From: Jiangella gansuensis DSM 44835
Lineage (GTDB): Bacteria > Actinomycetota > Actinomycetes > Jiangellales > Jiangellaceae
Reading direction: 5' to 3'
NCBI RefSeq assembly: GCF_000515395.1
Contig: NZ_KI911782.1
Span: 845,090 to 909,089, forward strand
Length of the DNA stretch: 64,000 bases
How positions within the stretch are numbered: position 1 is the first letter of the stretch; each line of letters starts with the position of its first letter. The notes below the pieces were generated by a model, which saw nothing but the letters and a program-made list of their open reading frames with translations, did no database searches and was not told where the DNA came from. The position numbers were made by a program, and so were the translations under genes. Of the stretch, positions 8,312 through 34,847 are shown in pieces.

Positions 8312-8331
8312 GCCGGTCTCCCTCGTGGATC

Positions 8332-9252: not shown

Positions 9253-9277
9253 CGGCGACCCGCCAGTCGCCGCGCCG

Positions 9278-10276: not shown

Positions 10277-10305
10277 GAGGCACTGCTCCAGAGGTGGTGA
10301 GCGCG

Positions 10306-10347
10306 TTGACACGGCCGAGCGGATCTGATCGGATTGAAACGTGTCAA
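10306..10347 (+). promoter_or_regulatory. Promoter with overlapping TTGAAAC/GTGTCAA operator; probable leaderless start
   Basis: TTGACA at 10306-10311 and TCGGAT at 10329-10334 are 17 bases apart and would start transcription near 10341. A near-perfect palindrome, TTGAAACGTGTCAA, occupies 10334-10347 over the start point. The following gene opens at GTG 10341 or ATG 10347 with no ribosome-binding sequence, so the message is probably leaderless and directly repressible at this box. Confidence 0.5.
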
Positions 10348-13452: not shown

Positions 13453-14340
13453 TCAGCCCTTGACGGCTCCCGACGTCACGCTGCTCATCACCATGCGGCG
13501 GAAGAACAGGAAGAGCACGATCAGCGGGATGGTCGCGAGCAGTGTCGCCGTCATGACGACCGGGTAGTCGCTGGTGCCATGGCTGCCGTTGAGCTGCTGC
13601 AGCGCCACCGGCAGCGTGTACTTGGCGGAGTCGTTGAGCACCAGCAGCGGCCACAGGTACTCGTTCCAGTTCCACATGAACTGGAACACCGTGAAGCCCG
13701 CGATGGCCGGCCGTAGCGCCGGTGCGCCGACGTGCCAGAACACCCGGAGGAACCCGGCGCCGTCGACCCGGGCGGCCTCGATGACCTCGTCCGACACCGC
13801 TTCGCGGGCGGCCTGGCGCATCCAGAAGATCCCGAACGCACTGGCCGCCCCGGGGACGATCAGCGGGAGGTAGGTGTTGATCCAGCCGAGTTCGACGTAG
13901 ATCTGGAACATCGGTACCAGCATGACCCCGGTGGGAAGGGTCATCGTCACCAGCAGGATGGCGAACAGCCAGTCGCGGCCGGGGAACCGGAACTTCGCGA
14001 ACACGAAGCCGGAGAGCGCCGCGATGGCGACGGTGACGGTCGTGGCCACGACGGAGACGAAGACGGAGTTGAGGAACGCCTGGTGGAAGTTGACGCTGCC
14101 GAACAGCCGGCCCATGTTCTCGAACAGCTGGCTGCCGGGGATGAGCCGGGGCGGGCTGCCGAAGATCTCCGACGTCCGGCTCGTCGACATCACGACCAGC
14201 CAGTAGAAGGGGAACGCGAAGAGTGCCGCGGCCGGGATCAGCACGACGTGCTGGACCCACATCCGCTGCCGCGGCCGCCGGGGACGGAGCTTCTCGGCGC
14301 GCGTCTGCGGAGGACGCGTTCTCACGGGGAGCGACGTCAC
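13453..14340 (-). CDS. ABC sugar transporter permease (MalG type), second importer
   Basis: A 295-residue membrane protein with a basic cytoplasmic N-terminus, six hydrophobic segments, the EAA loop DEVIEAARVDGAGFLRVF near residues 190-208 and a C-terminal SGAVKG. GTG 14340 is the start; it overlaps the TGA of the upstream permease by four bases (GTGA). It is the third gene of the binding protein, permease, permease operon. No ATPase is linked. Confidence 0.9.
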   Translation of the reverse strand: MTSLPVRTRPPQTRAEKLRPRRPRQRMWVQHVVLIPAAALFAFPFYWLVVMSTSRTSEIFGSPPRLIPGSQLFENMGRLFGSVNFHQAFLNSVFVSVVATTVTVAIAALSGFVFAKFRFPGRDWLFAILLVTMTLPTGVMLVPMFQIYVELGWINTYLPLIVPGAASAFGIFWMRQAAREAVSDEVIEAARVDGAGFLRVFWHVGAPALRPAIAGFTVFQFMWNWNEYLWPLLVLNDSAKYTLPVALQQLNGSHGTSDYPVVMTATLLATIPLIVLFLFFRRMVMSSVTSGAVKG

Positions 14341-15290
14341 GACAGCTCCTTCCGGCGCTTGGCGATCACCCGGGCGTTGAGGACGGCGAGCAGGATGAGC
14401 ACCACGAAGATGCCCCAGCCGATGGCGGTGGCGAACCCGAGATCGGTCGGCACTGTCTGCAGCGTCGCGCCCATGTACCGCACCTGCAGGAACATCATGG
14501 TGACGACGGAGTCGTTCGGCCCGCCCAGGCCGTTGGTCAGCACCTGGGGCTCGGTGAAGATCTGGAACCCGCTGATGGTGCCGGTGACGGCGACGAAAGC
14601 GACCGTGGGCAGGATCATCGGGACGGTGATGGAGCGCAGGATCCGCCAGGAACCGGCGCCGTCGAGCCGGGCCGCCTCGTAAAGCGACGGCGGGATCGAG
14701 GAGATGCCGGCCAGGAAGATGACGACGAAGTAGCCGAAGCTGCGCCAGAAGATCATCAGGGAGACGACGAAGCGCACCCCCCACTCGGTGGTCATCCAGG
14801 GCACCGACGCCAGCCCGATCCACTCGAGGAACGTGTTGATGATGCCGTACTCGTTGGAGAACAGCGACTGGAACACGATCGCCACGGCGACGATGGACGT
14901 CACCTGCGGCAGGAAGAACATGGTCTGGTACCAGCCGCGGGCGCGCAGCTTCGGCGAGCTGAGCAGGGCCGCGGCGCCCAGAGACGCCAGGATCACGGGG
15001 ATCTGCGCGCTCAGGAAGATGATGACCGTGTTGCCGAGAGCCTTGGTGAACTCGCCGGAGCTGAACAGCCTGGTGAACTGGTCGGCGCCGACCCACTCGA
15101 TGTCGCCGAGGCCGTCCCACGACACCATCGAGAGGTAGACGGCGAACCCGAGGGGGAACAGCCCGAACGCCGCGAAGAGGATGTAGAACGGCGAGATCGC
15201 GAGGTATTCGCGCCAGTAGCGCAGCAGCGTCTTCTTGCGTCGACGGGTCGGGGTCGCCCCGGCGCGGCGCGGCGTTGCGGTCTGCGTCAT
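14337..15290 (-). CDS. ABC sugar transporter permease (MalF type), second importer
   Basis: A 317-residue membrane protein. The N-terminal 25 residues are strongly basic (RRRKKTLLRYWREY). Hydrophobic segments follow, with the EAA loop PSLYEAARLDGAGSWRIL near residues 215-235. The ATG at 15290 has GGAGGGG six bases upstream. It lies 58 bases after the binding-protein stop and overlaps the next permease by four bases, so the three genes form one operon. Confidence 0.9.
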   Translation of the reverse strand: MTQTATPRRAGATPTRRRKKTLLRYWREYLAISPFYILFAAFGLFPLGFAVYLSMVSWDGLGDIEWVGADQFTRLFSSGEFTKALGNTVIIFLSAQIPVILASLGAAALLSSPKLRARGWYQTMFFLPQVTSIVAVAIVFQSLFSNEYGIINTFLEWIGLASVPWMTTEWGVRFVVSLMIFWRSFGYFVVIFLAGISSIPPSLYEAARLDGAGSWRILRSITVPMILPTVAFVAVTGTISGFQIFTEPQVLTNGLGGPNDSVVTMMFLQVRYMGATLQTVPTDLGFATAIGWGIFVVLILLAVLNARVIAKRRKELS

Positions 15291-15348
15291 GAGCCCCTCC
15301 GCGGCGACGGAGCCGGAATCGGCCCCGTCGCCGTCCGCGAGTGTCGGA

Positions 15349-16587
15349 TCACAGTTCGGCGTTCGCCTCGACGAGCGACTCGTAGACCTCCGCGGGGTCG
15401 TTGTTCGAGCTCGCCAGGTCGTTGAGCGCCACGAAGAACGCGGCCGCGATCGTCCCGCTGTTGGGGGCCTGGTAGACCAGCGGCGCGTCGGTGGCCGTCT
15501 GGGCGAGGACGCCGAGGGTGTCCTGCCCGCCGTAGAATTCCTGCGGCGTCGCGACGTCGGGGTCGGAGTGGACACCCGTCGACGCCGGGAACAGCCCCTT
15601 GTCGAGGTAGCCCGCCTTCTGGAACTCCGCACCGCCGATGTACGCGGCGAGCTCACGCGCCTCGTCCGGGTGGTCGCTCGCGGCGAGGGCTGCGACGTAC
15701 GAGCCGCCGGTGGCGACCGGGCCGCCGGGCACCGTGGTGACGCGCCAGCTGCCGGCCTGCTGCTCGCCGGCCGACTGCAGGATGCCGTCCTCCCACGCGG
15801 GTCCGACGAAGCCGACGATGTCGTCCTGCGTCATGGCCGCGTTCCACTCCGGCGTGTACGGCTCGGTATTCGTGCACAGGCCGTCCTGGGCGAGAGCTGC
15901 GGACTCGACGAAGGCCTCGCGCGAGATGGGCGAGTCGACGGCGTTCACGGCCTCACCGTCCTGCTGTTCGAAGTACGCGTAGCCGTGCTGCCCGAGCCGG
16001 GCCTGGTAGTTCTGGCCGGCGTGGTCGCAGACGTACTGGCCGGCGGCGGCCGCGGCCTCGGCGAGCTCGCGGTACGCCTCCCAGGAGTTGACCTGCTCGG
16101 CGACGGCTTCGGGCTCGGACGGGTAGCCGAGTGCTTCCAGCGCCTCCGCGTTGTAGAAGAAGCCCCACGGGCCGATGTCGGTGGGCAGGGTGAGCTGCTT
16201 GCCGTCTGGGGTCTGCCCGAGCTCGAGCGCCCAGTCGATCGCGTCGCTGTCGGCCGCCTCGTCGGCCAGGTCCAGGAACTGGTCGGAGACGGTGAAGAAG
16301 GACGGCAGGTTCCCGCCCATGACGACGACGTCGGGCAGGCCGCTCTGCGACCGGATCGCCGCACGCAGCTTGTCCTCGATGTCCGGGATGTCTTGGAACG
16401 TGATGTCGTAGTCGGGGAACTGCTGGTCGAGCAGCTGTTGGACGTCGTCGGGCACCGAGTTGCTGCGGGCCCAGAGCGTCAGCTCGACCTGGCCGCCGGA
16501 GGCTTGGTCGTCGCCGCCGCATCCGGCCAGGGCGCCGGCCGCCGCGAGGGCGGCTGTTCCGGCGGCGAGCATGCGAGAGAGTCTCAT
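15349..16587 (-). CDS. ABC sugar transporter, substrate-binding lipoprotein, second importer
   Basis: A 412-residue family-1 binding protein. The signal peptide reads MRLSRMLAAGTAALAAAGALAGCGG, split here only for description: a basic start, a hydrophobic core, then an LAGC lipobox near residue 22. The ATG at 16587 is preceded by GGAG. The mature protein carries the usual two-lobe architecture (VELTLWARSNS, VVMGGNLPSFF, VGPAWEDGIL). It is divergent from the apiosidase-like gene, and the inverted GAAACGT boxes between them suggest joint control. The ligand is unknown but is likely an oligosaccharide handled by the neighbouring glycosidases. Confidence 0.9.
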   Translation of the reverse strand: MRLSRMLAAGTAALAAAGALAGCGGDDQASGGQVELTLWARSNSVPDDVQQLLDQQFPDYDITFQDIPDIEDKLRAAIRSQSGLPDVVVMGGNLPSFFTVSDQFLDLADEAADSDAIDWALELGQTPDGKQLTLPTDIGPWGFFYNAEALEALGYPSEPEAVAEQVNSWEAYRELAEAAAAAGQYVCDHAGQNYQARLGQHGYAYFEQQDGEAVNAVDSPISREAFVESAALAQDGLCTNTEPYTPEWNAAMTQDDIVGFVGPAWEDGILQSAGEQQAGSWRVTTVPGGPVATGGSYVAALAASDHPDEARELAAYIGGAEFQKAGYLDKGLFPASTGVHSDPDVATPQEFYGGQDTLGVLAQTATDAPLVYQAPNSGTIAAAFFVALNDLASSNNDPAEVYESLVEANAEL

Positions 16588-16634
16588 CGTCGTCTCCAGT
16601 CGTGATGAACAACGGCGTCCGTCGCGGATCTGTA

Positions 16635-16662
16635 ACGTTTCAGTGACGCGGACTCGAAACGT
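16635..16662. promoter_or_regulatory. Inverted ACGTTTC/GAAACGT boxes between divergent sugar genes
   Basis: ACGTTTC at 16635-16641 and GAAACGT at 16656-16662 are perfect complements with 14 bases between. They sit in the divergent gap between the binding-protein gene and the apiosidase-like gene. A TGCTATGGT sequence at 16671-16679 resembles an extended -10 element for the rightward genes. The boxes share the GAAACG core with 8332 and 10334. Confidence 0.45.
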
Positions 16663-16746
16663 GCGGCCGATGCTATGGTGCATGAACATTCACGTCAACA
16701 GGATTATGCACATCAGTGTGTCAGAGTCCGACAGGGAGGCCGCCCC

Positions 16747-18252
16747 ATGCCCCATGAGCGCTACCGACCGATCGAGCTGTCCTTCGAGGGAGACGCCGTC
16801 ATCCCGGCGGACCGCACGCCCCTGACAGTCCGGTTCACGCACGAAACCGCCGGTGAGGTCGTGGTCCCGGGGTTCTGGGACGGGGAGCAGATCTATCGGG
16901 TCAGGTTCGCGCCCGAGGCGGTGGGCACCTGGACCTGGCGCAGCGAGAGTTCCGAGGGCCGCTCGCTCGCCGGTTCCGAGGGAACGTTCGACGTCGTCGC
17001 GGGGCCAGACCACGGCCCGGTCCGGGTCGCCAGCCGCTTCCACTTCGCCCACGCCGACGGCACACCGTTCCGGCCGGTCGGCACCACCGCCTACAACTGG
17101 CTGCACCAGGACGAACCGCTGTTCTCCCAGACCGTGGACGCCGTCGCCGACGCGGGCTTCAACAAACTGCGCTTCATGGTCTTCCCGCAGGCCGGCGGCT
17201 ACATCGAGCACACGCCCGAGCTGTTCCCGTTCGAGCGGCCGGACGGACGGTGGGACGTCACCCGGCCGGTGATCCCGTTCTTCCGGCGCCTGGATGCCGC
17301 GGTCGGGTCGCTCGGGAAGCGCGGCGTCCAGGCGGACGTCCTGATCTTCAACGCCTACGACCGCGGCTACTTCGGGCTCAACGAGCTCACCGAGGACGAA
17401 GACGAGGTCTACCTGCGCTATCTGGTGGCGCGCCTGAGTGCATACCCGCACGTGTGGTGGTCGCTGTGCAACGAGTTCGACCAGCTCCAGCGGCCGGCGC
17501 AGCGGTGGGACCGGGCCGGCAGCCGGCTCGCCGAGCTCGACCCGCACGCGCACCTGCGCTCGATCCACAACTGGGTCGAGCTGTACGACAACAACCAGCC
17601 GTGGGTCACGCACGCGTCACTGCAGAACGGGTCCGCCACGACCGACTTCGGCCGCGCGAACCTGTACCGCGACGTCTACGGCAAGCCGGTGGTGCTGGAC
17701 GAGATCAAGTACGAGGGTGACATCCCCGAGCGCTGGGGCCACCTGACGGCGCGGCAGCTCGTGCACCAGTTCTGGATCACCACCGTCTCCGGGTGCTACG
17801 CGTCGCACGGAGAGAGCTTCGTGACCGAGAGCGGCAGCCTCCACATGGTGGAAGGCGGCCCGTTCCGCGGCGAGTCGCCGGCGCGGCTGCGGTTCCTGCG
17901 CGAGATCCTCGAGGACCTCACCGTCCCCGGCCTCGACCCGATCGACAAGTGGGACGACCCCGCGCACGTGGCCGGCGTGTCTCGCCGTCAGTACGTGCAG
18001 TACCTGGGCGAGTCCGCGCCGCCGGCCTGGGCGTTCCGCCTTCCGGTGAGCTTCCCCAGCGAGCGGCCGGAGGTCGGCGACGTCTTCGAGGTCGACGTCA
18101 TCGACACGTGGAACATGACGGTGACACCGGCGGGCCGCCGGTTCACCCTCACGGAGGTATTGCGCAACGACGCCTACGACCGTGACTCCGCGCCGCTGGA
18201 GCTCCCGGAAGGCGAGGCGATCGCGCTGCGGATCACCCGGGTCGAGGACTGA
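16747..18252 (+). CDS. DUF5060/apiosidase-like (GH140-related) glycoside hydrolase
   Basis: A 501-residue cytoplasmic protein. Residues about 1-95 form a DUF5060 Ig-like domain (VVPGFWDGEQIYRVRF). Residues about 100-400 form a (beta/alpha)8 barrel of the DUF4038 apiosidase-like type, with GTTAYNW at its start. The acid/base Glu is in VWWSLCNEFDQ near residue 244 and the nucleophile candidate Glu is in VVLDEIKYEG near residue 320. A DUF5605-like beta domain ends the protein. The ATG at 16747 has GGGAGG eight bases upstream. GH140 enzymes cleave apiose from rhamnogalacturonan II. With the apionate pathway nearby, apiose release is a sound but unproven guess. Confidence 0.72.
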   Translation: MPHERYRPIELSFEGDAVIPADRTPLTVRFTHETAGEVVVPGFWDGEQIYRVRFAPEAVGTWTWRSESSEGRSLAGSEGTFDVVAGPDHGPVRVASRFHFAHADGTPFRPVGTTAYNWLHQDEPLFSQTVDAVADAGFNKLRFMVFPQAGGYIEHTPELFPFERPDGRWDVTRPVIPFFRRLDAAVGSLGKRGVQADVLIFNAYDRGYFGLNELTEDEDEVYLRYLVARLSAYPHVWWSLCNEFDQLQRPAQRWDRAGSRLAELDPHAHLRSIHNWVELYDNNQPWVTHASLQNGSATTDFGRANLYRDVYGKPVVLDEIKYEGDIPERWGHLTARQLVHQFWITTVSGCYASHGESFVTESGSLHMVEGGPFRGESPARLRFLREILEDLTVPGLDPIDKWDDPAHVAGVSRRQYVQYLGESAPPAWAFRLPVSFPSERPEVGDVFEVDVIDTWNMTVTPAGRRFTLTEVLRNDAYDRDSAPLELPEGEAIALRITRVED

Positions 18253-18253
18253 C

Positions 18254-20347
18254 GTGACCTCGACCCCGGTGGATCGCGCCCGAGCCTGGCGGGCCGGCCC
18301 GCGGCTCGGCACCGCGTACTACAACGAGTACCTGCCCGACCCGGGGCGGCTGGCGGACGACCTGTCGTTGATGCGTGACGCCGGGATCAGCTGCATCCGC
18401 GTCGGTGAATCCGTGTGGTCCACGTGGGAGCCGGCCGACGGCCGGTTCGACCTCGACTGGCTCACGCCTGTCCTCGACGGCGCCGCCGGCCACGGCATCG
18501 ACGTGATCCTGGGGACGCCCACGTACGCGGTGCCGCCGTGGCTGAGCCGGAAGCATCCCGAGCTCGCCGTCGTCCGGGCCGACGGGCGCGCGGTGCGGTG
18601 GGGCGCGCGACAGGAGGTGGACTACACCTCCGAGCTCTTCCGCGGCTACGCCGAGCGGGTGATCCGGGCGGTGCTGGGGCGGCACGGCCGGCACCCCGCC
18701 GTCGTCGGCGTGCAGCTCGACAACGAGCCGGGCCTGCACCTGATCCACAACGACCACGTCGTCGTGCGCTTCCGCCGGTGGCTCGCCGACCGGTACGGCG
18801 ACGTCGACACCCTCAACCGGGCCTGGGGGCTCGCCTATTGGTCGCACCGGCTGTCGGAGTGGGACGACCTGTGGGAGCCGGGCGGCAACACCACGCCGGC
18901 GTACGACCTCGCGTGGCGGCGCTTCCAGGCCGAGCTCACGGCGGAGTTCATCGGCTGGCAGGCGGGAATCGCGCGCGAGCTCGTCGAGCCGGGGACGTTC
19001 CTCACGACGTGCATGGCCTACCAGCGCCCGGCCATGGACGACGTCGCCGTCGGCTCCGAACTCGACATCGCCAGCGGCAACGCGTACTACCTGGCCCAGG
19101 ACGCCCTGCACGGGGCCCGCGACGGTGCCGGCGGCCAGTGGTACGCCGACGACGTCGCGCAGCTGGTGCTGCTGGCCGACCGGATGCGGGCCACGCGCGA
19201 CGACGGGTTCCTGGTGACCGAGACCGGGGCCGCCTCGATCGGGCCGGCGCACCTGACCCGGCCGCCGTACGACGGTCAGCTCGCCCAGGCGGCGTGGCTG
19301 CTCGTCGCGCGCGGCGCCCGGCTCGTGTCGTACTGGCACTGGCACACGCTGCACTCCGGGGCCGAGGTGCACTGGGGCGGAATCCTCGGGCACGGCCTGA
19401 AACCGGGTCGCATCCACGAGCAGATCGCCGGTATCGGCCGTCAGTTCGCCGCCGCCGCGCCGTGGCTGGCCGACGCCGAGCCCGAGGCGGGCGTCGGCAT
19501 CGTCTATGCGCACGACAGCGAGTGGATGATGGCCTTCGAGCCGCCGCTGGCCGGGCCGGGGGGTGCCGCCGACAGGGGCTCGTATGCGCGCATCGTGGGC
19601 GCGTTCGGCCGTGCGGCGCTCGACGCGGGCCACCAGGTGGGGTTCGTCAACGAGCGCCGGCTCACCGATGCCGGTGACCTGGTGCGCCGCTACCCGGTGC
19701 TGATCGCGGCCGGTTTGATCGCGGCCTCGGACCACACGCTGGCGCTGCTCGCCGACTACGTCGAGGCGGGCGGGCGCCTCGTCGTCGGGCCGCGTACCGG
19801 GTACGGCGACGACGTCGGCCGGATGCGGCCGACCGCACCGGCCCCGGCGGTGCTGCACCGACTCGCCGGCGCGGGCTACGAGGAGTTCGCGGCGCTGCCC
19901 GAGCCGGTTCCGGTCGCGGGGGTCGGCGAGTCCGGTCACGCACGCGGGTGGATGGACGCGCTCGTCGCCGGGGACGCCGAGGTCGTGGCACGGTATCGGC
20001 ACCCCCACTTCGGCCGTTGGGCGGCGGTCACCCGGCGCCGGGTCGGTCGCGGGACGGTGACCATGGTGGGCACCCTGCTCGACCGGACGCTGCTGGCCCG
20101 GATCGTCGCCGAGGCGGCCGGTGCCGTGACGCCGACGCCACCGGTCTCGGTGCGGCCGCTCGAGGTGACGGCGCACTCGCTCGCGGGGCCGCACGGGCGG
20201 ATCTGGGTGGTGCACAACTGGTCGCCCGAGTCTCGGACCGTGCACCTGGACCAGGCCGTGGCCTCCGTCGTCGACGACTCCCGCCATGACGCGGGCACGC
20301 CGGTCAGTCTCGGGCCGTGGGCCGTCCGGGTGTGGCGGGTGCAGTGA
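18254..20347 (+). CDS. GH42 beta-galactosidase-type enzyme
   Basis: A 697-residue protein with the three-domain GH42 layout: the catalytic barrel (residues 1-390), a trimerisation flavodoxin-like domain (about 400-600) and a C-terminal beta domain. The barrel begins LGTAYYNEYLP, has the acid/base Glu in VQLDNEPGLH near residue 158 and the nucleophile Glu in FLVTETGAAS near residue 320. GTG 18254 starts one base after the stop of the apiosidase-like gene, so the two are co-transcribed. GH42 members act on beta-galactosides or alpha-L-arabinopyranosides. Its 3' end overlaps the convergent apnL gene by 44 bases. Confidence 0.9.
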   Translation: MTSTPVDRARAWRAGPRLGTAYYNEYLPDPGRLADDLSLMRDAGISCIRVGESVWSTWEPADGRFDLDWLTPVLDGAAGHGIDVILGTPTYAVPPWLSRKHPELAVVRADGRAVRWGARQEVDYTSELFRGYAERVIRAVLGRHGRHPAVVGVQLDNEPGLHLIHNDHVVVRFRRWLADRYGDVDTLNRAWGLAYWSHRLSEWDDLWEPGGNTTPAYDLAWRRFQAELTAEFIGWQAGIARELVEPGTFLTTCMAYQRPAMDDVAVGSELDIASGNAYYLAQDALHGARDGAGGQWYADDVAQLVLLADRMRATRDDGFLVTETGAASIGPAHLTRPPYDGQLAQAAWLLVARGARLVSYWHWHTLHSGAEVHWGGILGHGLKPGRIHEQIAGIGRQFAAAAPWLADAEPEAGVGIVYAHDSEWMMAFEPPLAGPGGAADRGSYARIVGAFGRAALDAGHQVGFVNERRLTDAGDLVRRYPVLIAAGLIAASDHTLALLADYVEAGGRLVVGPRTGYGDDVGRMRPTAPAPAVLHRLAGAGYEEFAALPEPVPVAGVGESGHARGWMDALVAGDAEVVARYRHPHFGRWAAVTRRRVGRGTVTMVGTLLDRTLLARIVAEAAGAVTPTPPVSVRPLEVTAHSLAGPHGRIWVVHNWSPESRTVHLDQAVASVVDDSRHDAGTPVSLGPWAVRVWRVQ

Positions 20348-22073
20348 CCCGCAGGGCCTGCCACGACAGGGCCGGGACGACCACCCGTCGCACCACCCGG
20401 TCCAGGGCCACCGCGACCGTCCGCGCCGAGGTGTCGAGGTTGGACATGAACACGACGTCGTGATCCCACTGCCGGGCGCCGACAGCCCAGACGAATCCGT
20501 CCGGGCTCTCGCCGCCGAGCAACGTCGCTGCGTCCACCCGGGCCAGCGCGGTGATCGCCGCGGCGACGGGGTACGGCGCGCCGGAGGCCGAGCGGATGCC
20601 CCGTGGGCCCCACTCCTCGAAGTAGGTCAGTCCCGCCACCCCCGGCACCGCGAGGGCGGCCGCGCCGGCGATCGTCCAGGCGGCCAGTTCCGGCGCCTGC
20701 TGACGCGGGTCGACGGCACCGGTGAACTCCGCGCCGTAGCCCTCGGTGAGGTCGGAGCGGGCCGGCCCGGCCGCGGCGGAGGCCGCCGCGTCGTTGAACC
20801 GCGGGCGCAGGGTGATGGGGCCGATGTGCACGGGCACGTCGCCGGCGTACGAGACCGCCTGCCGGGCGACGAGCCGCTGCATCGCGACCGACTCGACCAG
20901 TTGGGCGGTGCCGAGCTCATGGAACAGCGGTGTCATGGCCACGGTGACGCCGGCCAGGTCGCCGGGGAGCTGGCCGAGCCGGCGGTTCAACTCCGTGAAG
21001 TGCGACCGCGAGCCGCCCACGACGGGATGCGTCACCCCTGCCCTGGCCATGGCGTCGCGCAGCGCCGTCACGACGTCCTTCTCGGACACGTGCGAGGCGG
21101 GGTCGAAGACCGCGACGCGCTCGACGGCGAGGGGGCGCAGCCGCTCGGTGAGATCGCGCAGCAGGCTCGGCTCCGGCGGCGTCGGGAGCACGACCCGTAC
21201 ATCGAGCGGCAGCCCGCGCTCAGCGGCCCGGACGAGCGCGGCCGGCCAGTTCGGCGTCGCGAGGTCGAGCTCCACCAGCATCGACCGGCCGACTCGCGGC
21301 AGTCCGCGCGGTTCCGGGTCGGGCGCGGTCGAGGCGGCGACACCGATGGCGGGGAACCGGCCACCGGGCGTCAGCTCGATGCGGTCCGAGACCCTGCCGG
21401 CCGTGCCGGACGGTCTTCCGGTGACGCGCACCGTCACGCTCTGGCGAACCTGCTCGCCCGCGGCCAGCCGATAGGGAAACGGCAGCGCGAGCGGGCGGCT
21501 GTAGGTCTTGAACGAGGCGTCGGTCCAGTTGCGCTGGTCCTCCATCTCGAAGACGTCGCCGGCGAGGTCGGCCCGGATCCGCATCCCGGCGTCGTTCCAC
21601 GCCAGTGCGGCGATGTCGGAGACGGGCTGATGCGGGCTGATGGTAAGCGGGAACCGCGTCGTCTCGCGCGTCCCGTCGGGGTGGGTGACGACGAGGTCCG
21701 CACCGGCCAGCCGGGGTGGATGCAGCACGACCAGGCCGGTGCGGTTGGTGTCGAACTCCCCGCCCGACACCGCGACGAACTCGACCGACAGGGTGTCGCC
21801 CCGGGCCAGCACGCGGATGGTGCCGGTCAGGTCGGCGCCGAAGCTGCGTGAGCGGACCGGCACCTCGATGCCGTCGTCGCTTTCGGCCACGGCGCCGACG
21901 GTCCATTCACCGGTCCGCCAGTCGCGATCCCGGACGACGGCACGGACGCCGCGCAGCACCGTCCGCTCGTTCCACGCCACCTGGGCCAGTTCGTCGCCAC
22001 GCAGGACGAGCGACCACGGCCCGCTGCGCCAGCGGCGGGACGGCCCGCGCGACGACTCCCACGCGGTCGGCAC
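20304..22073 (-). CDS. apnL: D-apionate lactonase candidate
   Basis: A 589-residue protein without signal peptide. It has no classic hydrolase motif that I can see. The middle segment FEMEDQRNWTDASFKTYS near residues 177-194 and the overall length match what I recall of the D-apionate lactonase (ApnL) family from the D-apiose catabolic work. The immediate neighbours are the next enzymes of that pathway. It would open D-apionolactone to D-apionate. GTG 22073 starts four bases after the apnO stop. It is the last gene of the six-gene operon. Conservation of the segment plus context gives moderate confidence; a generic hypothetical annotation would be the fallback. Confidence 0.72.
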   Translation of the reverse strand: MPTAWESSRGPSRRWRSGPWSLVLRGDELAQVAWNERTVLRGVRAVVRDRDWRTGEWTVGAVAESDDGIEVPVRSRSFGADLTGTIRVLARGDTLSVEFVAVSGGEFDTNRTGLVVLHPPRLAGADLVVTHPDGTRETTRFPLTISPHQPVSDIAALAWNDAGMRIRADLAGDVFEMEDQRNWTDASFKTYSRPLALPFPYRLAAGEQVRQSVTVRVTGRPSGTAGRVSDRIELTPGGRFPAIGVAASTAPDPEPRGLPRVGRSMLVELDLATPNWPAALVRAAERGLPLDVRVVLPTPPEPSLLRDLTERLRPLAVERVAVFDPASHVSEKDVVTALRDAMARAGVTHPVVGGSRSHFTELNRRLGQLPGDLAGVTVAMTPLFHELGTAQLVESVAMQRLVARQAVSYAGDVPVHIGPITLRPRFNDAAASAAAGPARSDLTEGYGAEFTGAVDPRQQAPELAAWTIAGAAALAVPGVAGLTYFEEWGPRGIRSASGAPYPVAAAITALARVDAATLLGGESPDGFVWAVGARQWDHDVVFMSNLDTSARTVAVALDRVVRRVVVPALSWQALRVTAPATPGRPTARD

Positions 22074-22077
22074 GGCC

Positions 22078-22968
22078 CTACCGTTCGATGGCGTCGAGGT
22101 GCAGCATGCGGGCGAGGTTCTTGTCGAGCTCGTCGTCGCGGAAGACCTTCTTCCAGTCCTCCCTGACGATGCTCTCCCGGCCGTAGTCCATCGCGATGAG
22201 GCACGCGTCGCTGAACGGGTTGTCGCCGCGCAGGCCGTTCGCGAGCGCCACCTGGGTGTGGCCGAGCAGGATGCTGCGGGCCGCGGGCTCGGGAACGCCC
22301 ATCGTGTTCACGGCCTCGTCGAGAGCCTCCTTCAGCAGCGCGCCGACCATGCATGCGATCGTCTCGACCAGCGTCGGCTCCAGCTGGGCGAGCTGCTTGA
22401 CCGTGACCCAGTGGACGTCGACCACCGGCGCGTAGATGGCCCGCACGGTGGCCTCGACGATCCGCGCGGCCGCCGGGTCGTCCGACTCGACCGCGGCGAT
22501 CGCGTCCTGCGGTGCCGCGATGCCGCCGAAGGTGTCGGCGTACTCCTCGGGCGTCGTGCGCTGAAGGAAGATCGACGGGTGGCACGGGTGAGCGACCGCC
22601 TGCGTGACGTCGGGCCGGGTGGTGAGCAGCCCCGCGTACGCGGCCGCGGGATCGAGCGTCAGCGCGATGGAGCCGGGCCGCATCCGCGGCACCAGGTCGG
22701 CCGTGACCGTCCGGAGCGCGAGGTCCGGCACCGCGAACACCACGATGTCGGCGTCGGCCACGGCGCTCGAGGCGTCCGTGAGCTCGCGGCCCGCGTCGAG
22801 CGTGCGCTGCTGCCCGGTGGGGGAGTTCTCGACGTAGCGGACGCGGTGGGGTGTCTTCACGAGGTTGTTCGAGATGCGCATGCCCATCTTGCCGCCAGCT
22901 CCGATGACGGCGATGGTGTAGACGTCGGTGAACGGGGTCGGTGGGGTCGTGGGGGTCGTGGAGGTCAC
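22078..22968 (-). CDS. apnO: D-apionate oxidoisomerase candidate
   Basis: A 296-residue NAD(P)-binding dehydrogenase. The Rossmann motif VIGAGGKMGMRI lies near residue 20. The body resembles phosphogluconate/hydroxyisobutyrate-type dehydrogenases (DIVVFAVPD, AHPCHPSIFLQR), and the helical C-terminal domain has LGHTQVALANGLRGDNPFSDA. ApnO converts D-apionate to 3-oxo-isoapionate. GTG 22968 overlaps the upstream oiaC stop by four bases, with AGGAG upstream. The gene lies between the putative lactonase and decarboxylase in pathway order, which supports the assignment. Confidence 0.75.
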   Translation of the reverse strand: MTSTTPTTPPTPFTDVYTIAVIGAGGKMGMRISNNLVKTPHRVRYVENSPTGQQRTLDAGRELTDASSAVADADIVVFAVPDLALRTVTADLVPRMRPGSIALTLDPAAAYAGLLTTRPDVTQAVAHPCHPSIFLQRTTPEEYADTFGGIAAPQDAIAAVESDDPAAARIVEATVRAIYAPVVDVHWVTVKQLAQLEPTLVETIACMVGALLKEALDEAVNTMGVPEPAARSILLGHTQVALANGLRGDNPFSDACLIAMDYGRESIVREDWKKVFRDDELDKNLARMLHLDAIER

Positions 22969-23759
22969 AGCGTGCTCCTGAGGTAGTCGACGGTGATGCG
23001 GGTCCAGTCCCGCTCGGTCCGGACGGTGGTCTGGGCGTCGCCCTGCCAGGGCAGCCAGTGCTCGACGATCTCGTTGACGTCGCGTTCGCGCGGCCGGACC
23101 GTGTCGAGCAGGTGCGGGTAGTCGTGCAGGCCGCTGCCCATGGGCGCGCCGCCGTAGGTGAAGCCCACCCAGCCCGGCTGCCGGGCGAAGGCGAAGTCCT
23201 TGACGTGCACGTTGACCACCCGGCCGGCCGTCAGCTCCACGGCGTCGCGGGGCCGCTCCAGCCGGGCGACGACGTTGCCGGGGTCGAGGCAGATCCCGAG
23301 GCTCTGCTCGGCGAACGACGACACCAGCGTCATCAGGTCAGCGGTCGCGACCTGCTCGTACGTCTCCAGGGCGAGCGTGACACCGGCCGCTTCGTACGCC
23401 GGCAGCGCGGTGCGCAGCCAGTGCTCCGCCTCGGCAAGGGTCGGGCGGGTGTCCGGTCCGTACAGCATGCTGCGCACCAGGGACGCACCGAAGACGTCGG
23501 CGAGCTGGAGGAACCGGTCGAGCCGGCCGGGCTCGATGCCCTTGGTGCCCAGCTCGATGGTCAGGCCCAGGTCGCGCGCGGCCGCCGCGGCGTGCCGCAG
23601 CTCGCCGTCGCCCATCGACTCCAGCGGCGGGTAGTCGCAGATCTGGAACAGCTCCACGCCCAGTTCGCGGGTCGCCTCGAACGCGCCGACGAGCGACAGC
23701 GGATCGTCGACCCGGTCGGAGTGCTGCCAGAAGAACGCGTAGGTGCCGAGCCCGATCAT
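22965..23759 (-). CDS. oiaC: 3-oxo-isoapionate decarboxylase candidate (xylose-isomerase-like TIM barrel)
   Basis: A 264-residue AP-endonuclease-2/xylose-isomerase-like TIM barrel. Candidate metal ligands are in IELGTKG (Glu near 88), LALETYEQV (Glu near 151), ICLDPGN (Asp near 178) and VNVHVKD (His near 207). OiaC of the D-apiose pathways belongs to this superfamily and decarboxylates 3-oxo-isoapionate to L-erythrulose. A plain sugar-phosphate isomerase is the alternative from sequence alone. The next genes phosphorylate and isomerise erythrulose, which favours the decarboxylase reading. The ATG at 23759 overlaps the upstream stop (ATGA). Confidence 0.72.
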   Translation of the reverse strand: MIGLGTYAFFWQHSDRVDDPLSLVGAFEATRELGVELFQICDYPPLESMGDGELRHAAAAARDLGLTIELGTKGIEPGRLDRFLQLADVFGASLVRSMLYGPDTRPTLAEAEHWLRTALPAYEAAGVTLALETYEQVATADLMTLVSSFAEQSLGICLDPGNVVARLERPRDAVELTAGRVVNVHVKDFAFARQPGWVGFTYGGAPMGSGLHDYPHLLDTVRPRERDVNEIVEHWLPWQGDAQTTVRTERDWTRITVDYLRSTL

Positions 23760-24550
23760 GCGGGGTCCGGGGCTGGAGCGCGGCCGGCGGCGAGCGCGGC
23801 CGCCTCGTCCAGGACGGCGGCGAGCGCGCCGGGCTGGTGGGCGAACCGGCCGAGGAACAGGCCGTCGACGGCACCGTCGACGGCGGTGAGCTCGGTGAGC
23901 AGCCCGGGGCCGGCGGACCCGCCGTAGACGACGGCGCTGCCGGCGCGCTCGGCCAGCCCGTCCAGCGCGGCGCGCAGCGCCCGCCCCACCGCGGCGATGT
24001 GTGGTGCCGGTGCGGGCTCGGCAGCGCCGATCGCCCACACCGGTTCGTAGGCGACGATCACCGTGCCGGGCGGAGCGCCGTCGAGCCCGCCGCGCAGTTG
24101 CGCGACGGTGGCGGCGGCCGCGGCGTCCGGGGCGAGCCGCTCGGTCTCACCGACGCACAGCACGGGCGTGAGCCCCTGGCGCAGCGCCGCGGCGGACTTG
24201 GCCGCGACGTCGACGTCCGTCTCGCCGAACAGCCGGCGCCGTTCGGCATGCCCCACCTCGGCCAGCTCGGCGCCGACCTCGGCGAGCTCGGCGGCGCTCA
24301 CCTCGCCGGTGAAGGCGCCGGGGTCGTGGCCGGCGACGTCCTGGGCGCCGACCCGCACGGTCGTGTCGGCGAAGGCACGCAGCGCCGGCAGGATCTGCAG
24401 ATAGGTGGGCAGGACGAACAGGTCCACGTCGCCCGAGGCGACAGCGTGATGCGAACGGGCCAGTTCGGCGACCCGCTCGCACCACCCGGCGGCCTGGCGG
24501 TGTCCGAAGTACGTCTTCAGGCTCACGCCCACCGTGACCGTCGCGGTCAT
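23756..24550 (-). CDS. lerI: Triosephosphate-isomerase-like L-erythrulose-1-phosphate isomerase candidate
   Basis: A 264-residue TIM homologue. The catalytic Lys is in SLKTYFG near residue 10, where ordinary TIM has NxK; the Asn is replaced by Ser as in EryH-like enzymes. The His is in VGHAERRRLFGE and the catalytic Glu in VIVAYEPVWAIG near residue 175. The phosphate loop VVYGGSAGPG lies near 215. The changed first motif and the operon context point to a tetrulose-phosphate isomerase rather than glycolytic TIM. It would convert L-erythrulose 1-phosphate to D-erythrulose 4-phosphate. Its start overlaps the preceding derI stop by one base. Confidence 0.75.
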   Translation of the reverse strand: MTATVTVGVSLKTYFGHRQAAGWCERVAELARSHHAVASGDVDLFVLPTYLQILPALRAFADTTVRVGAQDVAGHDPGAFTGEVSAAELAEVGAELAEVGHAERRRLFGETDVDVAAKSAAALRQGLTPVLCVGETERLAPDAAAAATVAQLRGGLDGAPPGTVIVAYEPVWAIGAAEPAPAPHIAAVGRALRAALDGLAERAGSAVVYGGSAGPGLLTELTAVDGAVDGLFLGRFAHQPGALAAVLDEAAALAAGRAPAPDPA

Positions 24551-25020
24551 CAGCAGGAGCCCGTGGTTTCGAACTCGTCGAGGACCGCGACCTTCGCCGC
24601 CGACGCCGACGCGGGGTCGAAGCGGTAGGAGAGCCACTCCTTGACCAACCGGCGTGCCAGTTCGATGCCGATGACGCGCTGGCCCATGGTCAGCACCTGG
24701 GCGTCGTTGGAGAGTACGGAGCGCTCCACCGAGAAGCTGTCGTGCGCCGTCACGGCGCGGATGCCGGGCACCTTGTTCGCGGAGATCGCGACACCGAGCC
24801 CGGTGCCGCAGATCAGGAGCGCGCGGTCGGCGTCCCCGGCGGCGACCTGCTGGGCAGCCGCGATCGCGACCTTCGGGTACGGGGTGTGCCCGTCGGCGTC
24901 CACGCCCATGTCCACGACCGATGCGACACCGGGGTGCTGCTCGAGGTCGCGCTTGAGGGTCTCCTTGTAGTCGTACCCGGCGTCGTCGCTGCCGACGACG
25001 ATGCGCAGAGGCTGGAGCAC
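24550..25020 (-). CDS. derI: RpiB-type D-erythrulose-4-phosphate isomerase candidate
   Basis: A 156-residue RpiB/LacAB-family isomerase. Motifs are [15 protein letters not shown] at the N-terminus, [14 protein letters not shown] near residue 45, [23 protein letters not shown] (active-site Cys in ICGTG near residue 70) and ANDAQ-like [15 protein letters not shown] near residue 105. EryI/DerI relatives convert D-erythrulose 4-phosphate to D-erythrose 4-phosphate, which enters the pentose phosphate pathway. GTG 25020 starts one base after the kinase stop. Ribose-5-phosphate isomerase B is the alternative by sequence; context decides. Confidence 0.76.
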
Positions 25021-25021
25021 G

Positions 25022-26770
25022 TCAGTTCCTTCCGGTGTCGTCGAGCACGCCCGCCACGGCGGTGACCACGAGGGCGAGGGAGTGGGCGCCGGGGTCGGGG
25101 GTGCCCAGGCTCTTCTGCGCGTGCGGCCGGGCGCGGCCCACCCGCGGCAGCAGGTCCGCGGTGGCGGCGGCCGCTCTGGTGGCGGCGGCCGCAGCGTCGG
25201 TCCATGCCGCCGGGAGCGACGCCCCGGCCTCGACGGCCCTGGTCAGCTCGGTGCTGAACGGGACGAGCGCATCGACGAGCGTCTTGTCGCCGACCGCCGC
25301 CTTGCCGTAGGCGGCGACATCCCGGGACGCGGAGGCGACGCCCGCGGCGACGTCGACGGCGGACGGCTTCCCCGTGTCGCCGAGCCGGTCGGCGACGGCG
25401 GCGAGCATGACGCCCCACAGCGCGCCCGAGGTGCCGCCGGCACGTTCGGCCCACGCGTCGGCGGCGCGTCGCAGCGTTGTCCGGGCGCCCGCTTCAGCCT
25501 GGATCGCCTCGGTGGCCGCGGCGACGGCGGCCTGGGCGCCGCGCCGCATCCCGATGCCGTGGTCGCCGTCCCCGGCGACCTGATCGAGCCGGCCCAGGTG
25601 CTCCGCGTGTGCGTCCATCGTCTCGGCGATGGTGCGCAGCGCCGTGTGAACGATGGCGGCGACGGCGCGGGCGTCCTCGTCCGACGGCGGAACCGCGCCC
25701 GGGCCGTCGCCGGTGGCCTGGCCGGCGCCGGGTGAGGTCGTCTCCTGCCGGGCGGCCGGGGCGACGGTGCCGCGCCGGTAGGCGGGCGTGTCGACGGGGG
25801 CGTACCACAGCCGCTCCAGCTCGTCGTCGAGCCAGAACAGCGTCAGCGAGGTGCCGGCCATGTCGAAGCTGGTGCAGTACTCACCCACGTGCGGGTCGAC
25901 GACCTGGAGCTGTGCCTCGGTGAGCAGGTGGGCGATGCGCCGGTAGACGACGAACATCTCCTCGTACTTCAGTGACCCGAGTCCGTTCAGGATCGGCACC
26001 ACCCGCGCACCGGCAGCCGCCGGCACACCGTCCGGGAGTTCGTCGAGCAGGCGGGCGACCAGCATCTCGGCCAGGCCGTCCGCGGTGGGCACCTCGGTCT
26101 CCTCGATGCCGGGCTCACCGTGGATGCCCAGCCCCACCGCCATCCGCCCCTCCGGGACGGTGAACAACGGCCGGCCGGCGCCCGGCAGGGTGCAGCCGCT
26201 GAAGGCGACACCGAACGAGCGGGTTCGCTCGTTCGCCCGCCGCGCGACCTCGACCACGCCGGCGAGGTCGTACCCGGCCTCCGCGGCGGCCGCCGCCGTG
26301 CGGAACACGGTGAGGTCACCGGCGATGCCGCGACGCTTGTGCTTCTCGGCCGGTGGCGCACTGAAGATGTCGTCGGTGACCACGACCGTCTCGCAGGCGA
26401 TGTCGTCGGCACGCAGCTTCTCCTGTGCGGCGTCGAAGTTGAGCACGTCGCCGGCGTAGTTGCCGTAGCTGAGCAGAACTCCGCCGCCGCGGTGCGCCGC
26501 CGCGGCCACCGAGTACACCTGAGCGGCCGCGGGGGAGGCGAACAGGTTGCCCATCGCCGCCCCGTGCGCGAGGCCCTGACCCACCAGGCCGGCGAAGGCG
26601 GGATAGTGCCCCGATCCGCCGCCGACGACCACCGCGACCTGGCCGTCCGGGCTCGTGGTGCTCCGTACGACGCCACCGGGCACGCGCCGCACGTATCGCT
26701 CGTGTGCCGCGACGAACCCCGCCGTCATCTCGTCGGCGAAGTCGGCCGGGTCGTTCCACAGCCTGGTCAT
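25022..26770 (-). CDS. lerK: Dihydroxyacetone-kinase-family L-erythrulose kinase candidate
   Basis: A 582-residue single-chain DhaK-DhaL fusion. The DhaK half (residues 1-330) has [17 protein letters not shown] and the substrate-binding His in [15 protein letters not shown] near residue 225. A proline/alanine linker covers about 345-380. The DhaL half has the Mg-ATP loop [14 protein letters not shown] near residue 415 and GGTSGALWG near residue 470. It uses ATP. Glycerone kinase is the generic name; with the neighbouring tetrulose-phosphate isomerases it should phosphorylate L-erythrulose. The ATG at 26770 has GGAGG upstream. It is the first gene of the operon, facing the FadR-type regulator. 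Confidence 0.82.
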
Positions 26771-26813: not shown

Positions 26814-26831
26814 AAACCGGTTGACCGGTTT
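26814..26831. promoter_or_regulatory. Perfect palindromic operator AAACCGGT-TG-ACCGGTTT
   Basis: An 18-base perfect inverted repeat with a two-base centre, in the 94-base gap between lerK (leftward) and the FadR-type regulator (rightward). The GT-TG-AC core matches the general half-site style of FadR-subfamily GntR proteins. It is well placed to control both genes. Confidence 0.72.
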
Positions 26832-26864: not shown

Positions 26865-27605
26865 GTGCCCGCGTTCCGCACCGACCCGTCGTCCGAGATC
26901 ACGGCCGCGCTCGGCACGCTCCCTGCCGCCACGCCCGTGTCGGAGGTCGCCCGGCGGCTGCTCGACCTGTTCACCAGCGGCGCGGTCGCTCCGGGCACGC
27001 GGCTACCCCCGGAACGGCAGCTGGCGGCCGCGCTGGGCGTCGGGCGCTCCGCGATCCGCGAGGCGCTCGCCGCGCTGGAGATCCTCGGCATCGTCGACGT
27101 CCGGCCAGGCTCGGGCACCTACCTGCGCGGCGCGGTCAGCGACCTGCTGCCGCAGACGCTGCGCTGGGGCCTGCTCGTCGGCGAGCGCAACACCGCCGAG
27201 CTGCTCGAACTGCGTTCCGGGCTCGAGATCTACGTCGTGCGGCTGGCCGCGCGGCGGGCCGTTGCATCGCAGCTCGACGTCATCGGCGGCCATCTCGAGC
27301 GCATGCGTGCCTCCACCGGCGAGCTCCCCGAGTTCGCCCGCGCCGACCGCGACTTCCACCAGGCCCTCGCCGACGCCGCTGCCAACGCCACGCTGATCGA
27401 CCTGCTGCACGTCGTGCGGTCCCTGCTCCAGGTCTACGCCGACCGCGCGGTGCACGACCACGAGCAGGCGGTGGTCGCGCTGCACGAACACGAAGCCGTC
27501 TTCCGCGCCCTCCGCGACGGCGACGAGGACGCCGCCGCCTCGGCCATGGCCGTCCACATGGCCACCGCCTCGGCCCGCCTGGTCGCCGAAGCCGACTCCC
27601 CCTGA
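26865..27605 (+). CDS. GntR/FadR-family regulator of the apionate operon
   Basis: A 246-residue regulator. The winged helix-turn-helix near residues 20-90 has PGTRLPPERQLAAALGVGRSAIREAL. The all-helical FCD ligand-binding domain is near 95-235, with a metal/ligand set in ARADRDFHQALADAA and later His residues (HDHEQAVVALHEHEAVF). GTG 26865 lacks a ribosome site. A -10 like TATGTT at 26853-26858 with a weak -35 TTCAAG at 26830 would start transcription at the GTG itself, so it may be leaderless. It probably represses the divergent apionate operon and itself through the palindrome at 26814, with a pathway intermediate as inducer. Confidence 0.85.
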   Translation: MPAFRTDPSSEITAALGTLPAATPVSEVARRLLDLFTSGAVAPGTRLPPERQLAAALGVGRSAIREALAALEILGIVDVRPGSGTYLRGAVSDLLPQTLRWGLLVGERNTAELLELRSGLEIYVVRLAARRAVASQLDVIGGHLERMRASTGELPEFARADRDFHQALADAAANATLIDLLHVVRSLLQVYADRAVHDHEQAVVALHEHEAVFRALRDGDEDAAASAMAVHMATASARLVAEADSP

Positions 27606-29812: not shown

Positions 29813-30748
29813 TCAGGGCACCCGGTACCCGGCGGCGCGGAACAGTTCGTACCACTCCGGCCGGGTCAACGGGAGGTCGGAGCCCCGCGTGGCGCCCGCC
29901 ACGCGTTCCGGTGTGGTGGTGCCCAGCACGACCTGCATGCGGGCGGGGTGACGGGTGATCCAGGCCACGGCGATCGCGATCGGCGGCACGTCGTACTTCG
30001 CGGCCAGCCGGTCGATGACGGCGTTGAGCTCGGGGTAGCGGGGCGAACCGAGGAAGACGCCGTTGAAGAAGCCCGCCTGGAACGGCGACCACGCCTGCAC
30101 GGTGATGTCCTGCAGGCGGCAGTAGTCGAGGACGCCGCCGCCGTCGAGCGTGACCGACTGGTCCTCGCCGTGCATGTTCGCTGCCACGCCCTGCGCCACG
30201 ATGGGCGCATGGGTGATCGACAATTGCAGCTGGTTGGCCACGATCGGCTGCCGCACCGAACGCTTCAGCAGCTCGATCTGCCGCGGCGTGTGGTTCGACA
30301 CGCCGAACGCCCGCACCTTGCCCGACGACTCCAGCTCGTCGAAGGCGCGGGCCACCTCGTCCGGCTCGACCAGCGCGTCCGGGCGGTGCAGCAGCAACAC
30401 GTCGACGTAGTCGGTGTCGAGGGCGCGCAGCGAACCCTCGACGGACTCGATCAGATGCTCGTACGAGAAGTCGAAGTACGGGCCCTCACGCACGATGCCC
30501 GCCTTGGTCTGGATGGTGAACTCCGCGCGCTGCGACGGCGTCAGCTTCATCGCCTCGGCGAAACGGCGCTCGCACGCGTGCAGCTCGCCGCCGTACACGT
30601 CGGCGTGGTCGACGAAGTCCACGCCCGCGTCACGCGCCGTGCGCACCAGCTCAAGCACGGCGTCGTCGTCCAGCTCGCCGATGCGCATCAGGCCGAGCAC
30701 GACGTTCGGCACCTGACGGCCGGTGGCACCCAAGGGGACAGTCTTCAT
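29813..30748 (-). CDS. Aldo/keto reductase
   Basis: A 311-residue NADPH-dependent oxidoreductase of the AKR (beta/alpha)8 family. Asp and Tyr of the catalytic tetrad are in VDFVDHADVYGG near residue 45, Lys in TIQTKAG near 80 and His in VLLLHRPD near 112. The C-terminal cofactor-binding segment is VVLGTTTPERVAGA. The ATG at 30748 has GAGGAG upstream. It resembles the YdhF-type group of AKRs. Substrate unknown. Confidence 0.88.
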   Translation of the reverse strand: MKTVPLGATGRQVPNVVLGLMRIGELDDDAVLELVRTARDAGVDFVDHADVYGGELHACERRFAEAMKLTPSQRAEFTIQTKAGIVREGPYFDFSYEHLIESVEGSLRALDTDYVDVLLLHRPDALVEPDEVARAFDELESSGKVRAFGVSNHTPRQIELLKRSVRQPIVANQLQLSITHAPIVAQGVAANMHGEDQSVTLDGGGVLDYCRLQDITVQAWSPFQAGFFNGVFLGSPRYPELNAVIDRLAAKYDVPPIAIAVAWITRHPARMQVVLGTTTPERVAGATRGSDLPLTRPEWYELFRAAGYRVP

Positions 30749-30813
30749 GCGGATTCTCCTCGTCGAAGGGTCAGGGTGCGGCGGGGGCACCGAGCAGGAA
30801 CGACACCTACTTG

Positions 30814-34591: not shown

Positions 34592-34847
34592 CTCGCCGTC
34601 ACTCGATGATCCAGAAATGTCGTCGTCGGTCAGCTGCGCCGCTCACGGAAACTACCGCACGAACCGGCCCTGACCTGCGCTTCCGAACCACCGAGCATGC
34701 GCCTATGGGCAGCTGAGGCGCGGCGCGTTGCGGTCACCTCCCGACGCCCGACGCTCGCCGAGCGTTCACCGTCCCGACAACCTGCCTCCACGCAGCGCCC
34801 CTAGGTTGATTTGGCTCATCATGTCCCTTTAGTCAGAGAGACGACCC
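34592..34847. other. Intergenic region before the secreted phosphoesterase
   Basis: These 256 bases show no convincing gene, repeat or strong hairpin. A promoter for the following gene is expected near 34800-34830 but no good -35/-10 pair stands out. Confidence 0.4.

Follow-up and report, generated by a model that had tools for sequence, protein, structure and literature searches.

A six-gene operon of Jiangella gansuensis that probably converts D-apionolactone to D-erythrose 4-phosphate

The decarboxylating chemistry of apionate degradation is already known from other bacteria; Carter et al. reportedly described, in 2018, a route for D-apionate that involves OiaC, together with the reactions of ApnL, ApnO and OiaC. 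The steps from L-erythrulose to erythrose 4-phosphate are those of LerK, LerI and DerI, which serve tetritol catabolism (PMC10733421). A Rhodobacteraceae strain in which ApnL, apiose dehydrogenase, ApnO, 3-oxoisoapionate kinase and OiaX are annotated could grow with D-apiose as its sole source of carbon (PMC11747546). That strain lends support to the gene names, although it represents the OiaX route. Here, we describe an operon of six genes in a stretch of 64,000 nucleotides from Jiangella gansuensis DSM 44835 (contig NZ_KI911782.1, positions 845,090 to 909,089), the whole of which is called the window. Gene order, homology, conserved context and a recurring palindrome suggest, with a probability of about 0.82, that this operon forms the intracellular half of an apiose-utilization locus, in which apiose would be converted via apionate to erythrose phosphate.

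The operon consists of six minus-strand open reading frames (ORFs) at positions 20304-26770, whose start codons were checked and which encode, in the order of transcription, LerK-, DerI-, LerI-, OiaC-, ApnO- and ApnL-like proteins. The successive junctions are a 1-base gap, a 1-base overlap (TGATG), two 4-base overlaps and a 4-base gap. The first gene (25022-26770) encodes a putative L-erythrulose kinase, a single-chain DhaK-DhaL fusion (Pfam Dak1 4.2e-111, Dak2 7.3e-45), with an ATG start at 26770 in an ORF that at its longest extends to 26815. It is followed by genes for an RpiB-family isomerase (24550-25020; LacAB_rpiB), which would convert D-erythrulose 4-phosphate to D-erythrose 4-phosphate, a TIM-family isomerase (23756-24550; Pfam TIM 1e-49), which would convert L-erythrulose 1-phosphate to D-erythrulose 4-phosphate, a putative decarboxylase with a xylose-isomerase-like barrel (22965-23759; AP_endonuc_2, PF01261, 2.9e-15), a putative D-apionate oxidoisomerase (22078-22968; PGDH_C, PF16896, 1.6e-56, plus an NAD-binding domain) and a putative D-apionolactone lactonase of a divergent branch (20304-22073; NCBIfam NF049900, 3.3e-67). 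An earlier note, made from the letters of this DNA, had described these six genes in this order with this tight spacing, and both the ORFs and the junctions were found as it claimed. The superfamilies it named were likewise recovered, five of them in the Pfam scan and the lactonase through the NCBIfam model. For five of the six genes, the frame is backed by codon-position GC content (GC3 0.88-0.96). The exception is the LerI-like gene, where GC-based selection retained an overlapping plus-strand frame (23837-24628); here, the minus-strand frame was accepted because of homology, i.e., the Pfam TIM match and 40 homologous ORFs in other loci. The ORFs on the opposite (plus) strand of the operon were discarded, since homology and, for five of the six genes, codon-position GC favor the minus strand.

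The LerK-like protein passes the cut-off of NF011049 (739.1 bits, cut-off 492); its sequence matches general DhaK/DhaL kinase models only, and its specificity for L-erythrulose is putative. The DerI-like protein passes TIGR02133, an actinobacterial RpiB-type family (202 bits, cut-off 168.2). That the DerI- and LerI-like proteins are second copies in the genome speaks for the apiose reading: one more RpiB gene lies at 1626487-1626903 (156.7 bits vs. 152.2 for the DerI-like protein), and one more TIM gene at 2326786-2327532 (306.5 bits vs. 170 for the LerI-like protein). The change from NxK to SxK that the earlier note had seen in the TIM-like protein is real, as the residues read SLK. Among 40 LerI homologues from other loci, 39 have serine at this position and one was not parsed by the pattern; the Pantoea and Erwinia proteins discussed below have it too, and we infer that SxK may mark the LerI family. 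The protein retains Lys, His and Glu in the motifs where, presumably, the catalytic residues of TIM lie. Among the entries of the PDB, 11ef, designated L-erythrulose-1-phosphate isomerase, was matched at 8.5e-35, fourth behind three entries for (putative) triosephosphate isomerases.

The OiaC-like protein, a xylose-isomerase-like barrel whose gene adjoins that for ApnO, as expected of OiaC, is 51% identical to Pantoea and Erwinia proteins whose genes adjoin ApnO as well. The ApnO-like protein is 57-58% identical to its Pantoea and Erwinia counterparts and ~42% to Rhizobium and Sinorhizobium proteins, and it has conserved blocks in common with the Rhizobium homologue. It conforms to the pattern of its family, with a C-terminal PF16896 and an N-terminal NAD-binding domain and with its gene beside those for ApnL and OiaC. 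By homology, it would oxidize D-apionate with migration of the hydroxymethyl group, and the OiaC-like protein would catalyze the decarboxylation.

The ApnL-like protein aligns end to end with ApnL of Rhizobium, with 30% identity over 544 positions. In an alignment of 51 out of 66 ApnL sequences of 520-680 residues, the window protein included, 61 columns are at least 94% conserved, and 53 of these are common to the window and Rhizobium proteins, including the FEMEDQRNW-DAS-KTY and FTELNR blocks. Neither a Pfam family nor a solved structure was matched by its sequence. An AlphaFold2 model based on the 51 sequences had a mean pLDDT of 95.6. In this model, residues 226-580, the part that the comparison mainly covered, align with glycosidases, among them heparanase of Burkholderia (7pr9, Z 23.7, 320 residues, 3.7 A), a β-glucuronidase of Acidobacterium, GH30 xylanases and GH51 arabinofuranosidases, which we take to belong to clan GH-A. 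Thus, a glycosidase-like barrel is predicted for ApnL. A Foldseek search listed GH36 and GH97 enzymes first, with low TM-scores, and also aldose-1-epimerase and mutarotase structures; although the table of matches gives no ranges, we take these mutarotase-type matches to reflect a predicted N-terminal sandwich. Function does not follow from a common fold. Glu486, at the end of the barrel strand counted as the seventh, presumably occupies the position where such glycosidases hold their nucleophile, and it is 96% conserved in the set. Since it is replaced by Ala in Rhizobium ApnL, the shared lactonase chemistry probably resides in the conserved sandwich block with Glu361, Asn363, His385 and Asp455.

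Assembled in this manner, the locus would function as follows. Apiosides would enter via an ABC transporter and be cut by an apiosidase, and a further oxidizing enzyme would convert the apiose to D-apionolactone. ApnL would open the lactone to D-apionate, which ApnO would oxidize and rearrange to 3-oxo-isoapionate, and OiaC would decarboxylate the latter to L-erythrulose. LerK would then phosphorylate L-erythrulose to L-erythrulose 1-phosphate, LerI would convert this to D-erythrulose 4-phosphate, and DerI would yield D-erythrose 4-phosphate. We infer every reaction in this organism, as well as the order of the steps, the import, the location of the apiosidase and the role of the regulator. 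From apionolactone onward, this pathway is well supported by the comparisons made, and it is strengthened by the palindrome and by the presence of an apiosidase-like gene at 16675-18252 on the plus strand. The encoded protein has DUF5060, Apiosidase and DUF5605 domains and passes the gathering cut-off for PF13204 (9.5e-19; 68.6 bits, cut-off 26.5); its function as an apiosidase is putative, and the one solved structure that it matched, 4n0r, is designated a putative glycoside hydrolase. It is the single PF13204 match found in the 5.59-Mb genome and is located 2 kb from the operon, whereas the chance of a randomly placed gene falling within 5 kb of the operon is ~0.3% by simple arithmetic. This proximity supports apiose as the substrate through independent evidence. 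The earlier note had proposed a complete pathway from D-apionate to D-erythrose 4-phosphate: the six enzymes would cover the conversion of D-apionolactone to D-erythrose 4-phosphate, but not that from apiose, for which no oxidation gene was identified.

Judged by homology and gene order, the window has ApnL, ApnO, OiaC and an erythrulose branch in common with the pathway of Carter et al.; it differs by a divergent ApnL that scores below the curated cut-off, by the lack of a recognized apiose dehydrogenase and by nearby genes for apiosidase-like and other glycosidases. The apiose cluster on plasmid pRL12 of Rhizobium johnstonii 3841, which follows the OiaK/OiaX route, similarly contains ApnL (1060.9 bits, cut-off 750), an ApnO homologue, ABC transporters and a DUF5060-Apiosidase-DUF5605 protein. 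In contrast to the window, it encodes a four-carbon acid sugar kinase and the RuBisCO-like OiaX (780.2 bits, cut-off 700; named in the record) instead of OiaC, it has its own Gfo/Idh/MocA oxidoreductase gene before that for ApnL, and DhaK and DhaL are separate proteins. The separate dhaK and dhaL genes adjoin ApnL in this OiaX-carrying cluster (L098 10883-20237). In plasmid pPAT9B04 of Pantoea sp. At-9b and in a plasmid of Erwinia sp. E602, LerK, LerI, OiaC and ApnO are encoded in the same order, with rpiB nearby. Unlike in the window, a gene for a transporter of the MFS family comes first, the regulator is a sugar-binding one rather than a GntR protein, and neither ApnL nor an apiosidase is annotated in the stretches shown. 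In the LerK-LerI-DerI module for tetritols used in E. coli, L-erythrulose is converted to erythrose 4-phosphate by these three steps as well; EltD feeds that module from erythritol or L-threitol (PMC10733421), whereas OiaC would do so in the window.

The earlier note called this branched-sugar pathway rare. Consistently, ApnL homologues were found in only 2 of the family's 22 genomes and in 5 of 396 genomes of a sample of the phylum in which only three first-look candidates per genome were scored, this genome being included in both counts; however, the genes are common in Microbacterium and its relatives. Named genomes were scanned with an alignment that omitted one homologue split over more than one frame (from genome G300, locus L008) and in which the row of genome G290 was incomplete at the start. 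It yielded at least 591 stretches, with 555 relatives among the matches listed, and the best 80 were kept as loci. These are largely from Microbacterium and other Microbacteriaceae, and also from Arthrobacter, other Actinobacteria, a few Chloroflexota and one Gemmatimonadota bin. Counted by tblastn with identity and length cut-offs, and with incomplete loci retained in the denominators, homologues of ApnO were present in 57 of the 80 loci, OiaC in 55, GntR in 49, LerK in 48, DerI in 46, LerI in 45 and the MFS transporter in 28, as opposed to OiaX in 2, OiaK in 1 and the Gfo/Idh/MocA protein of Rhizobium in none. OiaC and ApnO occur together in 55 loci, and all five other enzymes accompany ApnL in 42. 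The nearest named relative found of the ApnL-like protein is that of Jiangella asiatica (72% identity). In a quick tree, the two Jiangella sequences group with that of Microbacterium rhizomatis (SH-aLRT 95) in a clade of 25 rows, 17 of which are from Microbacterium; horizontal transfer would fit this position but is not proven by it.

Divergently from the operon, a gene for a GntR/FCD-family regulator is located at 26865-27605 on the plus strand (GntR 3.3e-18, FCD 3e-24; probable GTG start, longest ORF from 26655). Between them, at 26814-26831, lies the palindrome AAACCGG-TTGA-CCGGTTT (AAACCGGTTGACCGGTTT), a probable operator. Its first 17 bases are identical in J. asiatica, where neighboring non-coding bases diverge, and it is not found elsewhere in the window at up to three mismatches. 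Of the 128 sites with up to two mismatches to the 14-base core in the window and the 80 loci, 97 are near the starts of GntR, SDR (short-chain dehydrogenase/reductase) or MFS genes, in regions that account for 3.2% of the bases. With 100 shuffled half-sites, the same regions held 1.1 sites on average and 6 at most, and with the reversed pattern 0 out of 5. These regions were chosen after the motif had been seen, overlapping sites were counted apart, and related loci are not independent. By gene, a site was present in 45 of 50 regions for GntR, 28 of 28 for MFS, 18 of 48 for LerK, 19 of 64 for SDR and 9 of 81 for ApnL, and of the 56 sequences in which at least one of GntR, MFS and LerK is encoded, 53 contain a site there. 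Where SDR and ApnL are split from ApnO, a site precedes the SDR gene in 12 of 21 loci and is absent in 9, as compared with 7 of the 43 other loci. The GntR/FCD protein probably controls the operon through this palindrome. A FadR-type site (consensus TNGTMNKACNA) was also considered and gave a single match, away from the operon and within chance.

In the genome itself, the palindrome has 11 matches at eight places with at most two mismatches, the operon included, whereas the pattern read backwards has none. Three of the seven other places were inspected; two are inside reading frames, and one (G000:C1:4995577-4995592, one mismatch in 16) is intergenic, ~140 bases before a gene for a pectate-lyase-like protein (L119 4735-7155). 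This protein has a Tat-like signal, as read from its sequence, and matches the pectate lyase structure 9buj at 2e-53, which hints that pectin degradation may be part of the same regulon.

As to the oxidation of apiose, an SDR gene is present beside ApnL in 64 of the 80 loci, within 300 bases in 61 of them, and its product is 61-100% identical to the SDR of M. rhizomatis (L017 9217-9975). No NCBIfam name applies to this product; the matches shown are to generic SDR models and lie below their cut-offs, e.g., GolD/DthD with 163.5 of 286 bits, DthD being a threitol dehydrogenase. This ApnL-linked SDR is a natural candidate for D-apiose 1-dehydrogenase. Both Jiangella genomes that carry ApnL are devoid of a close homologue (best 38-41%); in the genome of the window, the SDR of M. 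rhizomatis had 41 matches, the best with 38-40% identity, and the Gfo/Idh/MocA protein of Rhizobium had 20 weak matches, the best by E-value with 30%. One of these Gfo/Idh/MocA matches or of the many SDRs could catalyze the oxidation. The SDR encoded at 33141-33881 in the window was rejected for this role, as it is 37% identical to the ApnL-linked SDR and is not the best match in the genome. An aldo-keto reductase gene at 29813-30790 had no match in J. asiatica stretches that reach ~4 kb beyond GntR, which is a partial test. An extended-SDR oxidoreductase, Epim, is encoded at 8416-9252 on the plus strand (Pfam Epimerase 6.3e-17 on an ORF from 8041) and is a weak candidate for the missing dehydrogenase. 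A 93% identical protein is encoded by J. asiatica on the contig that also carries its cluster, but 67-68% homologues are present in 5 of 10 Jiangella genomes that lack ApnL. Of the 55 loci with OiaC and ApnO, 8 lack the SDR and 3 of these have Epim, compared with 12 of the 47 that contain the SDR, numbers too small to separate the two groups; J. asiatica, one of the 8, carries it just outside the fetched flank.

Several observations weigh against the pathway reading. The ApnL-like protein fails the equivalog cut-off of NF049900 (227.4 of 750 bits, with 241.2 for the M. rhizomatis homologue), and its listed fold matches are mainly glycosidases and mutarotases, not lactonases. The DerI-like protein stays under the cut-off of its own NCBIfam model (NF051858, 152.6 of 240 bits), against which RpiB of Pantoea scores 179.2. 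No curated model for OiaC, ApnO, LerK or LerI was among the NCBIfam matches, and the assignment of these four is therefore based on context and homology. Furthermore, no D-apiose dehydrogenase was recognized in the genome by homology to two references, although a different or distant enzyme may be present, and an apiosidase-like gene is found in only 18 of the 80 loci within the fetched flanks. The one-to-one correspondence of the six genes to LerK, DerI, LerI, OiaC, ApnO and ApnL, as advanced earlier, thus holds by homology and by anchored clusters, but not by the curated cut-offs for ApnL and DerI. The distance of the ApnL branch (227 of 750 bits), the ~42% identity of ApnO to the Rhizobium and Sinorhizobium proteins and the lack of an apiose dehydrogenase would also suit the degradation of another pentonolactone, e.g., a linear pentonate, by 3-oxidation and a decarboxylation that yields erythrulose, with substrate-shifted relatives of ApnL, ApnO and OiaC. 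Yet, the sole apiosidase-family gene found in the genome is near the operon, 53 of 61 conserved ApnL columns are common with Rhizobium ApnL, and the three domains of the apiosidase-like protein recur together in a protein of the Rhizobium cluster, which makes this alternative unlikely.

It is highly improbable that the operon mainly serves the use of tetritols (erythritol or threitol) or L-erythrulose, with ApnL, ApnO and OiaC as accessories. No neighboring gene scanned in the window passed a model for a tetritol dehydrogenase, and OiaC and ApnO are together in 55 of 80 ApnL loci, 13 of which lack at least one of LerK, LerI and DerI in the fetched stretch. These points outweigh the match of the relatives' ApnL-linked SDR to the GolD/DthD family, which is below cut-off and one among many SDR models, and the role of LerK, LerI and DerI in tetritol catabolism (PMC10733421). 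TIM, RpiB, Dak and PF01261 are large, generic families, and the six enzymes might share no more than superfamilies with the apionate pathway and have unrelated roles; with a gene order that is conserved across genera and phyla and a palindrome that recurs, this is scarcely credible. The apiose reading thus remains the preferred one.

The wider surroundings of the operon contain further genes for sugar uptake and glycosidases. A GH42 glycosidase gene (18182-20347, longest ORF, true start probably later; Glyco_hydro_42 1.1e-77; 84% identity in J. asiatica) is on the plus strand, like the apiosidase-like gene, and both converge on the operon. The minus-strand ORFs at 18233-20287, 17617-18312 and 16690-17613 matched nothing, and the plus-strand genes were taken as real. 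On the minus strand, genes follow for the binding protein of a sugar ABC transporter (15349-16689, longest ORF, true start probably inside; SBP_bac_8 3.6e-21) and for UgpA-like (14337-15254, start approximate; BPD_transp_1 8.6e-15 on the longer ORF 14337-15656) and UgpE-like permeases (13453-14304, start approximate; BPD_transp_1 1.6e-18 on the longer ORF 13453-15120). The segment at 5714-12449 contains genes for a GH78 rhamnosidase, the extended SDR, a GH32/GH43-like protein and a 702-residue protein without a Pfam match; in J. asiatica and in some Microbacterium, parts of this segment are conserved next to the operon. Both J. asiatica and Microbacterium sp. B35-30 also have much of the glycosidase and transporter block adjoining the operon. 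Elsewhere in the window, a plus-strand ORF of 1532 codons at 34848-39446 has coding-like GC3, and the opposite minus-strand ORF (34833-37133) matched no family; a tRNA-Arg (CCT) gene is at 62980-63053 on the minus strand.

It is well supported that the Jiangella locus is a further example of known chemistry, of which the first step, the oxidation of apiose, is missing. Beyond this, a more tentative picture, for which we would give somewhat less than even odds as a whole, is that of an actinobacterial apiose regulon. In it, the GntR/FCD protein and a ATTGGTCAACCGGT-like palindrome would control the OiaC operon and the split SDR-ApnL genes, the SDR would be a second, unrelated kind of D-apiose 1-dehydrogenase that is replaced by another enzyme in Jiangella, and ApnL would be a lactonase built on a mutarotase-like sandwich and a glycosidase-type barrel, with a dispensable nucleophile position (Glu in most of the actinobacterial branch and Ala in Rhizobium). 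The model of ApnL supplies a fold for a family without a Pfam entry or a solved structure matched by sequence, and the recurring palindrome and the ApnL-linked SDR offer concrete starting points in the search for the regulator and for the apiose dehydrogenase. As the earlier note had anticipated for each family by itself, the genes of related loci are annotated as TIM barrel protein, phosphogluconate dehydrogenase C-terminal domain protein or hypothetical protein, generic names that conceal a pathway for a branched sugar in Microbacterium and its relatives.

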